From positions 1 to 20,795 of IMG/VR virus record IMGVR_UViG_3300025853_000833: a DNA stretch of 20,795 nucleotides, one strand, 5' to 3'. A program made the translations under genes and the position numbers. The notes beneath the pieces are model-generated. The model saw only the letters and a program-made list of their open reading frames with translations. It had not been told where the DNA came from and did not search any database. Each line of letters begins with the position of its first letter. Within the stretch, counting starts at the first letter, position 1. Source of the stretch: a virus. Positions 3,146 to 5,710 of the stretch are shown in pieces.

Positions 3146-3751
3146 ATGGGTAAAACAGGAGGAGATAGGGTTTCTGAAAATTATAAAAAAGAACAACTTC
3201 TTATAGATAAAATAATATTAAAATATCAACAAAAAATTTGTAGTAAATGTGGAGTAATGACTCCTTTACATTTATTTACTAAATCTAAAAATAGAAGGTT
3301 AGGACTTGGAAGTATATGCCTGAATTGTAAAAAAATAAGCAATGTAAAAACTTTAAATACAGAAAGAGGTTATTTTAGTGAACTATTTCATAGTATGAAA
3401 AAATCAGTTAAAAGAAAAAAAGCACCTATGCTAGAGTTTGTTGATACAGATGATCTTTTAAACCATTGGAGAGAACAAGAAAAAATATTTGGTAACTACT
3501 GTCCTGGTCTTGGAATTGAAATGACTTTTATTAAAGGACACAATGAAGGAAAAGAAAAAAAGAAACTGCTTGATACCAATTGTTCAATCGACAGGATTTT
3601 ACCTTGGGAAGGTTATACAAAAACAAATACTATTTTTACTTCTTGGAAATACAACAATATGAAAGGTAATATGACACCAAAAGCTGCTTATAGTTATTTA
3701 CAAATGGTTAAACTAAGATATAATACTCATATCGTTAATACAGAAGAATGA
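3146..3751 (+). CDS. HNH-type endonuclease-like protein with zinc ribbon
   Basis: A 201-residue protein. Residues 32-61 form a zinc-binding pair, CSKC and CLNC. Residues 147-174 read SIDRI...GYTKTN...SWKYNNMKG, which resembles the HNH core in which a DR pair, an Asn about 12 residues later and an N-x-K motif line up around the metal. These enzymes nick or cut DNA and often occur in phages as free-standing homing endonucleases. The first histidine of the classic HNH is not obvious, so activity is uncertain. An AGGAGGAG lies just inside the reading frame after the ATG and is not positioned for this start. The stop overlaps the methyltransferase ATG as ATGA. Confidence 0.65.
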   Translation: MGKTGGDRVSENYKKEQLLIDKIILKYQQKICSKCGVMTPLHLFTKSKNRRLGLGSICLNCKKISNVKTLNTERGYFSELFHSMKKSVKRKKAPMLEFVDTDDLLNHWREQEKIFGNYCPGLGIEMTFIKGHNEGKEKKKLLDTNCSIDRILPWEGYTKTNTIFTSWKYNNMKGNMTPKAAYSYLQMVKLRYNTHIVNTEE

Positions 3752-5037
3752 AAATATTAGATTTATTTAGTGGTTTAGGTGGTTTTAGCCTAGGCTTAGA
3801 AAGAACAGGAAAGTATAAAACCGTAGCCTTTTGCGAAATGGATAAATATTGCAAATTAGTGCTGCAAAAACATTGGAAAGGAGTTAAGATATATAACGAT
3901 GTCAAAGAAATTACAAAAGAAAGACTCGAAGCAGATGGAGTTGAACTTCCCGAAATCATCACGGGTGGTTTCCCATGTCAGCCGTTCAGCGTCGCGGGTA
4001 AACAAAAAGGAACAAGTGATGATAGACATCTCTGGCCTGAGATGTTTCGAATCATCAAAGAGCTTAAGCCGAGGTGGGTTATTGGAGAAAATGTCAAAGG
4101 TCTTATTAACCTCGAAAACGGCATGGTCTTCGAAACTGTGTGCGCTAACTTGGAAGGAGAAGGATACGAAGTCAGGGCGTTCAATATTCCAGCTGCAGGT
4201 GTCGGCGCTCCCCATAGAAGAGAAAGAATTTGGATTATTGCCCACTCCGAAAGCGAGAGATTACAAAGGAGCAGAGGGCAAGAGAGTGGTGGAAACGCCA
4301 ACGGGTTTCAGCAAGATAAGGAAAGAATCAAAAGTGAAATACGGGGCGAGTCTGAACGACGTAGCAGAGCATTTGGATATGAAAATATGGAGAACTCCCG
4401 ACGCACATTGCGACAGGGGACCTTCATCGGAGAAACGAATGAAGATGAAATTAGAAAAGAAAATGCCAATCAGTCTGAACGATCAAGTGGCTCATCCGAA
4501 ATTAATGTGGCCAACGCCAACAGTGATCGATCGACCGAACGAGGGGAACGTTCGAATGCTACGCAAGAAGGTAATGGCGGGCGAGATATCGAGAGAAGAA
4601 GCGAAGAAGATGTTGGGCAAGGACGTATTCGAGAAACAGGGGAACGTACCGAAAATGATGTGGCCAACACCATCTCAAGGGATGTGGAAACAGGACGTGA
4701 ACGACAACGGGGAGTACGCAAAGAGAGTCAAGGACAAGGGACATCAAGTGATGTTACCAGCAGCGGTGAAACTGTGGCCAACACCGAGAGCAGCCATCGG
4801 AATGACAATGAAACTATCAGAGGGAATGGCGAAACTTCGACACAAGAAATATTTGGAGACGGAAGTAGCTTATGTGGAGAAAGCGCCTGGTGGGACTTTG
4901 AACCCAACGTGGGTCGAGTGGCTCATGGGATACCCGGCAGGGTACACAGACTTAAAGCATTGGGAAACTCTATCGTCCCCAAGATCGCGGAAGAAATCGG
5001 TAAAGCAATCATAGAAGCAGAAAATGAAGTGGAATAA
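3748..5037 (+). CDS. C5 cytosine DNA methyltransferase with degenerate target-recognition region
   Basis: A 429-residue protein of the Dcm/C5 family, which transfers a methyl group from AdoMet to cytosine C5. Motif I is DLFSGLGGF (5-13), motif IV GGFPCQPFS with catalytic Cys77, motif VI ENVKG (114-118), and motif VIII HRRERIW (156-162). The C-terminal RVHRLKALGNSIVP supplies the motif IX/X region. Between about 168 and 385, where a folded target-recognition domain is expected, the frame is a low-complexity Ser/Arg/Glu/Asn/Gly sequence with repeated VANxxS units. The same bases carry a long ORF in the +1 frame. The gene is visibly richer in GC than its neighbours. It probably acts in modification against host restriction. 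Its end overlaps the exonuclease start by 14 nt. Confidence 0.88.
   Translation: MKILDLFSGLGGFSLGLERTGKYKTVAFCEMDKYCKLVLQKHWKGVKIYNDVKEITKERLEADGVELPEIITGGFPCQPFSVAGKQKGTSDDRHLWPEMFRIIKELKPRWVIGENVKGLINLENGMVFETVCANLEGEGYEVRAFNIPAAGVGAPHRRERIWIIAHSESERLQRSRGQESGGNANGFQQDKERIKSEIRGESERRSRAFGYENMENSRRTLRQGTFIGETNEDEIRKENANQSERSSGSSEINVANANSDRSTERGERSNATQEGNGGRDIERRSEEDVGQGRIRETGERTENDVANTISRDVETGRERQRGVRKESQGQGTSSDVTSSGETVANTESSHRNDNETIRGNGETSTQEIFGDGSSLCGESAWWDFEPNVGRVAHGIPGRVHRLKALGNSIVPKIAEEIGKAIIEAENEVE
3899..5014 (+). CDS. Embedded +1-frame ORF with WPTP repeats, possible methyltransferase partner
   Basis: A 371-residue ORF lying wholly inside the methyltransferase gene, in the +1 frame. 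It is not random. The pattern LTWKEKDTKS...FQLQVS...GLLPTP is followed by repeated WPTP-type units: LLPTPKARD, IWRTPDAHC, MWPTPTVID, MWPTPSQGM and LWPTPRAAI. It ends with GGTLNPTWVEWLMGYP and TDL. I recognise this series from proteins encoded with or over phage C5 methyltransferases. Codons look fuller and less repetitive than in the other frame over 4240-4880. An AAAGGAG lies 15 nt before the ATG, a long spacing. The precedent is M.EcoHK31I, whose beta subunit is read from another frame of the alpha gene. It could still be a shadow kept open by the methyltransferase. Confidence 0.5.
   Translation: MSKKLQKKDSKQMELNFPKSSRVVSHVSRSASRVNKKEQVMIDISGLRCFESSKSLSRGGLLEKMSKVLLTSKTAWSSKLCALTWKEKDTKSGRSIFQLQVSALPIEEKEFGLLPTPKARDYKGAEGKRVVETPTGFSKIRKESKVKYGASLNDVAEHLDMKIWRTPDAHCDRGPSSEKRMKMKLEKKMPISLNDQVAHPKLMWPTPTVIDRPNEGNVRMLRKKVMAGEISREEAKKMLGKDVFEKQGNVPKMMWPTPSQGMWKQDVNDNGEYAKRVKDKGHQVMLPAAVKLWPTPRAAIGMTMKLSEGMAKLRHKKYLETEVAYVEKAPGGTLNPTWVEWLMGYPAGYTDLKHWETLSSPRSRKKSVKQS
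4506..4785 (+). repeat. Three 13-bp repeats TGTGGCCAACRCC in the overlap
   Basis: Copies lie at 4506-4518, 4659-4671 and 4773-4785. Each encodes VAN(A/T) in the methyltransferase frame and WPTP in the +1 frame. Related, more diverged units occur near 4241 (CCCACTCCG) and 4388 (TGGAGAACTCCC). Confidence 0.8.
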
Positions 5038-5710
5038 AATATACGAGTACCCAAAATCTATTAGATCATTGATTAATGATAAAAGACACTATGAGGTTGG
5101 TGACGAAAAGCTACCATCTGTTACGACTATCTTGAGTGCCACAGAAAGCGACGAGAAACGAGAGTCTTTGGCTAGGTGGAAATCTAGGGTGGGTGAATCT
5201 GAAGCCGATCGTATAAAGAATGAAGCAGCCAAACGTGGAACCTCAATGCATAGTTATTTAGAGCATTATATAGCAGGAGAAGGCCTATTAGACCTGTCTG
5301 AGGAAGGCGTACAAGCGCAAAAGATGGCTGAGACTATCAGGGACAAGGGTTTTGGTGATTTGGAAGAAATTTGGGGTTCTGAGTGCGTTTTATACTATCC
5401 TGGACTGTATGCAGGGCAAACGGACCTTTGCGGTATTTATCAAGGGCGTGAAAGTATAATAGACTTTAAACAATCGAACAAGCCTAAAAGGGAAGAGTGG
5501 ATTGATAATTATTATCTTCAAGGTGCTGCTTATGCAACTGCTCACGATTGGGTCTATAAAACCCAAATTGAACAAATTGTAATATTGATGTGTACGCCTG
5601 ATCTTTACTTTCAGAAATTTGTCATAAATGGGTCTAGATTTAGGCAGTATAAATGGGAATGGTTAAAAAAGGTTGATGAGTATTATAGAAAAATTAACGA
5701 AAGAGGCTGA
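5024..5710 (+). CDS. RecB-like PD-(D/E)XK exonuclease
   Basis: A 228-residue nuclease of the PD-(D/E)XK superfamily, the type phages use for recombination or for recycling host DNA. RGTSMH places the early helix histidine at 76, GLYAGQTDL the metal-binding Asp134, SIIDFKQS the D-x-K pair Asp147/Lys149, and YYLQGAAYA the Q-x3-Y motif at 166-170. This order is complete for a RecB-type exonuclease core. The ATG at 5024 lies within the last codons of the methyltransferase gene, so the two are coupled. The 3' end overlaps the next small ORF. Confidence 0.85.
   Translation: MKWNKIYEYPKSIRSLINDKRHYEVGDEKLPSVTTILSATESDEKRESLARWKSRVGESEADRIKNEAAKRGTSMHSYLEHYIAGEGLLDLSEEGVQAQKMAETIRDKGFGDLEEIWGSECVLYYPGLYAGQTDLCGIYQGRESIIDFKQSNKPKREEWIDNYYLQGAAYATAHDWVYKTQIEQIVILMCTPDLYFQKFVINGSRFRQYKWEWLKKVDEYYRKINERG

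Follow-up and report, generated by a model that had tools for sequence, protein, structure and literature searches.

The beta chain of the methyltransferase M.EcoHK31I is encoded in another frame of the alpha gene, and the Bacillus phages SPR, phi3T, rho11 and H2 are known as multispecific C5-methyltransferase phages. M.EcoHK31I consists of two polypeptides, the large one carrying motifs I–VIII and X and the small one motif IX, with the predicted TRD placed in alpha; M.AquI, a C5-methyltransferase split after motif VIII, has both IX and X on its small chain (both according to PMC3404938). In temperate phages of Bacillus, multiple TRDs occur in a single polypeptide, with protection against many RM systems (PMC12707154).

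The present analysis concerns a virus contig of 20,795 bases (IMG/VR record IMGVR_UViG_3300025853_000833, taken whole and called the window below), which carries a single copy of an overlapping gene pair. Judged from its sequence and that of its relatives, this locus very probably specifies a single cytosine-5 DNA methyltransferase made of two chains, which are read from overlapping frames. The likeness to M.EcoHK31I drawn in the initial annotation is borne out: motifs I–VIII and X are on alpha, a segment that resembles IX by its position and motif reading is on the second chain and, from its position and evolutionary signature, this second chain appears to lie in another frame inside the alpha gene. 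Set against the available description of M.EcoHK31I, whose TRD is in alpha, the selected variable region of the window is a cassette array in beta. The split into two chains after VIII is shared with M.AquI as described, whereas X is in alpha in the window and on the small chain in M.AquI; seven relatives with X in beta, out of 292 distinct loci, resemble the description of M.AquI in motif content. Like the multispecific enzymes of Bacillus phages, again compared by description, the window has several units at the position of the recognition region, but a second chain, read in an overlapping frame, carries its array, which in those enzymes is part of one polypeptide. The nested beta of the Paenibacillus phage Lily (gp63, phrog_1008, annotated "g62 internal gene") is of the same type as that of the window; its cassettes are different, and "DNA methyltransferase" is its sole function label.

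As these systems are described, the window joins two known ideas, the motif split of the M.EcoHK31I type and the TRD arrays of Bacillus phages. The two-chain C5 enzyme was already known; beta as a cassette mosaic in a nested frame is new here. Our literature search, which covered mainly openly available papers, found no description of a nested-frame cassette array or of the rule relating the alpha frame to motif X.

Organisation of the locus

The two ORFs proposed in the initial annotation are present on nearly the same DNA (Table 1), alpha with 429 aa and beta with 371 aa in the +1 frame relative to alpha. The protein search of both frames that it called for returned PF00145 for alpha and phrog_1008 for beta. 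Alpha aligns to M.HhaI over residues 2–175 (phmmer, E 6.2e-24). In its AF2 model, residues 1–198 are mostly ordered, with low-confidence stretches at 78–84 and 120–125, the linker (residues 199–393) is disordered with block pLDDT of 32–52, and the C-terminus forms helices at residues 398–403 and 409–428 (motif X). A fold search matched this model to M.HaeIII and M.HhaI over about 173 columns; alpha alone was used, the AF2 prediction for beta being too poor (mean pLDDT 56.9).

Table 1. Features of the overlapping gene pair in the window.
Feature	Position	Strand	Basis
Alpha, C5-methyltransferase catalytic chain (motifs I–VIII, linker, motif X)	3748..5037	+	PF00145 E 1.4e-52; phmmer to M.HhaI; AF2 fold match M.HaeIII/M.HhaI
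Alpha motifs I–VIII domain (DLFSGLGG, GFPCQPFS, ENV, RRERIWI)	3748..4242	+	M.HhaI alignment; AF2 order, residues 1–198
Alpha shadow linker, residues 199–393, stop-free, no detectable amino-acid constraint	4342..4926	+	mid-region dN/dS; pLDDT; stop statistics
Alpha C-terminal segment WWDFEPNVGRVAHGIPGRVHRLKALGNSIVP with motif X, partly over beta motif IX DNA	4891..5031	+	ORF reading; AF2 helices
Beta, nested +1-frame chain (putative recognition region and motif IX)	3899..5014	+	phrog_1008 E 1.5e-28; +1-frame dN/dS; kept in relatives
Favoured beta start, ATG	3899..3901	+	upstream-ATG and SD statistics; alternatives ATG 3935, TTG 4082, ATG 4091
Beta conserved N-terminal segment (LLEKM...LTWKEKDTKSGRSIFQLQ...) opposite alpha motifs VI–VIII	4076..4264	+	both frames constrained; conserved alignment columns
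Beta cassette 1 (LLPTPKARDYKG...)	4235..4387	+	cluster 5
Beta cassette 2 (WRTPDAHCDRG...)	4388..4507	+	cluster 0
Beta cassette 3 (WPTPTVIDRPNEGNVR...)	4508..4660	+	cluster 18
Beta cassette 4 (WPTPSQGMWKQD...)	4661..4774	+	cluster 9
Beta cassette 5 (WPTPRAAIGMTMK...)	4775..4888	+	cluster 6
Beta motif-IX-like segment GGTLNPTWVEWLMGYPAGYTDL	4889..4954	+	invariant residues; position and motif reading

The segments of alpha that we take to be C5-methyltransferase motifs I, IV (PCQ), VI (ENV), VIII (RRER) and X (GN) are all present. The initial annotation was mistaken in attributing all catalytic motifs to the first frame, since a segment that resembles motif IX, LNPTWVEWLMGYPAGYTDL, sits in the +1 frame. 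Motif IX and the TRD are thus not found in the same chain as the PF00145 domain: the IX-like segment and the constrained variable region are both in the +1 frame. The ordered motifs reported for that frame, five (W/L)xTP-type units and NPTWVEWLMGYPAGYTDL, are indeed found in beta.

Beta matches no Pfam family at E≤1 and its matches to the PDB by sequence are at chance level (best E 0.88), so that sequence comparison with Pfam, NCBIfam and the PDB gives nothing of use; profiles of beta match no solved structure in the PDB either. Because beta is poorly predicted and its profiles match no solved structure, the identity of motif IX depends on position and motif reading. Residues L334, P336, V339, M343 and G344 of beta are invariant in 73 aligned sequences.

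At positions 4900–4957 of the window, alpha EPNVGRVAHGIPGRVHRLK and beta NPTWVEWLMGYPAGYTDLK are read from the same DNA. In relatives that have X in the beta frame (L226, L286, L292, L318, L320) and in the Paenibacillus phage Tadhana the equivalents of these two segments are in tandem, and therefore it seems that two conserved segments have been superimposed in the window, or else separated by duplication in the relatives.

Collection and classification of the relatives

Two scans of viral contigs, one per chain, with the best 80 matches kept from each, gave 159 loci together with the record of the window. All of them were recruited by similarity to this alpha/beta pair. Among the 143 complete loci (those with all four marker segments, duplicates included), both frames are open in 142, where alpha is one ORF and beta one +1 ORF inside alpha; the single exception, L026, begins at a contig edge. 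The remaining 16 loci are without one or more marker segments.

With a genome scan and two further viral scans (best 80 loci each), 403 loci were classed. After removal of 84 duplicates, 18 loci without I–VIII upstream and nine without IX, 292 were kept. In 276 of these, IX is in the +1 frame, X is in the alpha frame and alpha is open through IX. In seven, IX and X are both in the beta frame, and alpha stops before IX. One is a single-frame enzyme and eight are irregular (L188, L194, L195, L235, L237, L330, L349 and L377).

The single-frame locus (L176, 1378–3567), from a contig of an Actinomycetota MAG, has a single frame for I–VIII, several TPTP units, IX and X, and it is possibly a single-chain ancestor or a fusion. 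In L188 and L237, the alpha frame contains IX and the third frame contains X, as if after one indel in the mid region; this may be a natural variant, an inactivation or an assembly error. L195 (2070–3726, Flavobacteriales contig) has a short alpha followed by a separate beta-like gene downstream. In the uncultured marine phage KM23-C739 (L162, 2249–3192), alpha is interrupted near motif IV, its two pieces lying in different frames, and beta is intact; the break is either a sequencing error or real. In the plasmid pAP1 of Paenibacillus polymyxa (L412, 1342–2409), the +1 frame of a single alpha contains two segments that resemble motif IX.

The cassette array of beta

Between VIII and IX, the beta of the window contains five different cassettes. 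When a simple pattern is used to divide beta at its xxTP ("WPTP"-type) units, the 292 loci yield 994 cassettes, mostly of 30–49 residues, with 0–7 detected per beta. They form 147 single-linkage clusters at 45% identity, 86 of which are singletons, and are arranged in 248 distinct arrays among the 292 loci; many clusters are found at several positions of the array and some prefer one. When the I–VIII domains are at least 85% identical, the arrays differ in 544 of 609 pairs. There are also 436 pairs of loci which have a cassette in common at 80% identity or more and I–VIII domains that are at most 55% identical, many of these pairs being non-independent, and those without an I–VIII alignment having been entered as 30%.

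Within a single array, no cassettes are alike (0 of 1477 pairs with at least 45% identity over 85% of the length, cassettes shorter than 20 residues being unable to score). For 188 dereplicated loci, a shuffle that preserves position predicts 9.1 ± 2.8 repeats of 60% clusters (minimum 2 in 1000) and a shuffle that does not predicts 12.2 ± 3.2 (minimum 0); 0 are observed. The number of a looser cluster can recur in one array (1-0-15-0, for instance) because cluster 0 is chained.

Since the cassettes of this mosaic recur in distant enzymes and are not repeated within an array, they suggest that beta is a multi-specific recognition array, with exchangeable units, that is read in an overlapping frame. 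The cassettes would read DNA, as argued by their position, their exchange and their non-redundancy, and they probably choose which DNA sequences are marked. It may be instead that both chains are made but that the cassettes are structural spacers, or form a single recognition surface, in an enzyme that has one target. The cassettes have no known target, the fold of beta is weakly predicted and M.EcoHK31I has the single target YGGCCR (PMC3404938), all of which would agree with this explanation. On the other side, the number of cassettes varies, they are common to distant enzymes (the non-independent pairs above), and they lack the within-array repeats expected under the position-preserving shuffle, while tandem duplication would presumably be expected of spacers. 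We regard spacers or a single surface as unlikely, although a possibility to be taken seriously.

We think it rather probable that the window belongs to a widespread class of phage and bacterial enzymes whose exchangeable recognition cassettes are carried by a separate chain, written over the linker of the catalytic chain. Recombination of cassettes between viruses would obey a two-frame rule: each cassette has to be a recognition unit in the +1 frame and a stop-free linker in frame 0, and this rule would be gone where X has moved into the cassette frame. If this is true, a single phage enzyme could protect against several restriction systems and be re-targeted by cassette swapping, and a library of such small cassettes would give access to phage anti-restriction and to programmable 5mC marking.

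In five loci (L016, L047, L290, L358 and L368), TP-cassettes that follow IX extend past the alpha stop, in DNA that has 16–21 alpha-frame stops. Of these ten post-IX cassettes, two begin 59 bases and two 17–23 bases before the alpha stop; compared with the cassettes found between VIII and IX, seven match clearly, one weakly and two not at all. L047 (1789–2208) also has a recurring cassette of about 139 residues with a weak helix-turn-helix-like stretch, TPKELSEKSGIEYTTVEHWFR, whose matches are weak (phrog_4779, E 9e-4; PDB, E 0.24).

Selection on the two frames

Substitutions were counted in 49 disjoint pairs at 72–97% identity. Out of 114 loci with non-identical alpha genes, 109 were kept; four 5'-truncated loci were dropped, as was L159, the window's own copy, whose proteins are identical to those of L001. 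The positions of the changes, counted in pairs with a recognised motif X, depend on the region. In the N-terminus of alpha, 61% of the changes are at alpha third positions; between VIII and IX, 66% are at alpha first positions, which are the third positions of beta, and 12% at alpha third positions; at motif X the changes are back at alpha third positions (63%).

The dN/dS ratios were obtained by our own OLGenie-style count and are given for beta as dNN/dNS and dSN/dSS. Upstream of the overlap, in the N-terminus of alpha, which serves as an internal control, they are 1.39 and 0.99. Opposite the ENV..VIII region they are 0.48 and 0.41, with 0.24 and 0.20 for alpha. Beta has values of 0.27 and 0.08 in the mid region, and of 0.26 and 0.12 around IX, where alpha has 0.86 and 0.42; at motif X, beta has 0.71 and 0.43. 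Past the beta stop, a control with few sites, the values are 1.69 and 1.99. The initial annotation had reasoned that a +1 frame without function would have a dN/dS near 1 and frequent stops; the opposite is found, with the exception of the stretch from −66 to −2 before ENV (opposite motifs I–IV), where the dNN/dNS of beta is indeed 1.05 (dSN/dSS 0.44).

In the mid region, alpha has a dNN/dSN of 2.38 and a dNS/dSS of 0.72 (bootstrap 0.54–1.04), so that there is no detectable constraint on its residues. Between VIII and IX, alpha is thus, as read from these ratios, a shadow translation of beta, stop-free but without detectable amino-acid constraint. The way in which the locus has evolved shows that selection acts on both frames as coding sequence, and which frame matters where; the +1 frame has the appearance of a real gene.

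The stop codons were examined in 55 representatives (less than 85% identity) by shuffling codons synonymously in one frame, the protein being kept. When beta is recoded in this way, 359 stops are expected in the mid region of alpha and 0 are present. When alpha is recoded, 185 beta-frame stops are expected in the mid region and six are observed, all of them at or past beta's own end. The third frame, used as a control, shows no effect (871 stops for 860.5 expected). These deficits indicate that both frames are selected to stay open. Together with the open frames and the +1-frame dN/dS, they support the proposal, already made in the initial annotation, that a partner or specificity subunit is nested in the +1 frame.

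The position of motif X provides a clean natural experiment on overlapping genes. X was scored as being in the alpha frame by frame alone (278 loci), so that an alpha stop could show, and two of these loci (L194 and L235) do contain one. In the 275 that are long enough, one alpha stop is observed between VIII and IX for 1236 expected. In the seven loci with X in the beta frame, the alpha frame has 87 stops for 98 expected, which is chance level. For 116 dereplicated loci, the counts are one alpha stop against 460 expected, and 866 against 838 in the third frame. It follows that alpha is kept open in nearly every locus that depends on X in its frame, and in none of the seven that have X in the beta frame: these counts show that an alpha frame which carries motif X remains open. 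The alpha frame would act as a tether that has to stay open, a requirement that ends once the tethered motif has moved.

The start codon of beta

All 55 representatives have a beta-frame ATG 44–68 codons upstream of ENV (48.4 expected). Such an ATG is preceded by an SD of at least 5 bases in 32 of them (14.1 expected) and of at least 4 in 42 (25.0 expected). In all 55, the beta frame is open over at least 50 codons ahead of ENV, for 6.2 expected when codons are shuffled over the whole N-terminus; under a stricter shuffle within regions, 46.9 open loci are expected, and 9.4 stops, of which 0 are observed. The codon inside ENV, an attractive candidate in the window (GGAGAAAATG), was rejected as the start of beta: of 114 loci, 99 have ATG there and the other 15 ACG, and the SD context of this codon shows no enrichment (23 versus 20.8). 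A start at the upstream ATG and not at the ENV-ATG is therefore favoured by these statistics. Against it, dNN/dNS is near 1 in the −66..−2 stretch. No SD was scored within the scanned spacing of the ATG at 3899 in the window, and L155 and L156, whose 5' ends are intact, have an open beta frame with no ATG before ENV.

Proposed mechanism

The two proteins themselves, the start of beta, the formation of a complex, methylation and the reading of DNA cassette by cassette are parts of a scheme that we infer as follows. Alpha, in frame 0, would provide the AdoMet-binding and catalytic domain (I–VIII), then a disordered stretch, and then motif X, which would complete the catalytic domain. Beta would be produced by internal initiation within alpha in the +1 frame, probably at the ATG that lies 44–68 codons before ENV, and would supply its conserved N-terminal segment, the five WPTP-type recognition cassettes and motif IX. 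Once assembled, beta would occupy the slot of the recognition domain between motifs VIII and X of alpha, whose middle part would stay stop-free so that X remains tethered to I–VIII. Each cassette would read a DNA sequence, and the phage DNA would be shielded from several restriction enzymes.

The initial annotation also considered programmed frameshifting, which would fuse I–VIII of alpha to beta as a single chain, with no separate initiation of beta. The two frames are indeed offset by +1 and share DNA at motif VIII, and the single-frame MAG locus shows that a version with I–VIII, TP units, IX and X in one frame exists. However, keeping alpha open as far as motif X (one stop for 1236 expected) would be pointless if ribosomes left its frame at VIII; constraint on beta is found opposite ENV..VIII as well, a part that would not be translated after a shift at VIII; the +1 frame is open and the SD enriched at the upstream ATG; and the fusion would be devoid of motif X in the 276 loci that have X in the alpha frame. 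Frameshifting is therefore very improbable, and separate initiation of beta is the reading that we keep. That the +1 ORF is a non-functional shadow, open through conservation of the methyltransferase alone, as its overlap with a conserved gene and the ratio of 1.05 opposite motifs I–IV might suggest, can be practically dismissed if the alignments are sound, since the substitution positions and dN/dS between ENV and IX say the opposite (between VIII and IX the shadow is the first frame), the cassettes carry on in DNA beyond the alpha stop, and beta matches phrog_1008.

Distribution, annotation and neighbouring genes

The genome contigs that carry the pair include Paenibacillus, Brevibacillus, Clostridia, Proteobacteria, Bacteroidetes and Synergistaceae (best 80 of 330 relatives). 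Of these 80 loci, 68 are nested, five have an alpha that ends before IX, four have I–VIII and IX in one ORF and three are without I–VIII, some of them having been re-sorted in the later classification of 292 loci. Two plasmid records match beta.

We examined 16 annotated phage and plasmid records, hand-picked and thus non-random. The nested pair is found in 14 by HMM and in Sulfitobacter phage phiGT1 by eye, while Streptococcus phage Javan105 has a canonical single-frame enzyme without a nested pair. Among the 15 records with the pair, ten annotate alpha alone, two beta alone, one beta and a fragment of alpha, and two both, the frames being derived from the listed coordinates and the plasmid counted among the features listed. 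In Xanthomonas phage FoX4 (L163, 2426–3151) and Escherichia phage ST20 (L406, 1340–1993), it is the beta frame that was deposited as the gene, and alpha has no annotation. The phages of Paenibacillus larvae are an exception, with two features under the match in 23 of the 60 matches listed. Since annotation frequently settles on a single frame of the two, what is probably the specificity subunit often goes unseen, and when beta is unannotated the targets cannot be predicted from the annotated protein.

An endonuclease VII/HNH-like gene (3146–3751 in the window, phrog_1035, E 2.4e-16, no Pfam match) has its end overlapping the start of alpha. It was considered as a restriction partner and rejected: tblastn finds it in the fetched flanks of five of the 292 distinct loci only, and it is therefore not a conserved partner. 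On the other side, an exonuclease-like gene (5024–5710, phrog_298, E 1.2e-50) overlaps the end of alpha, and is found in the flanks of 43 of the 292 distinct loci, at varying distances.
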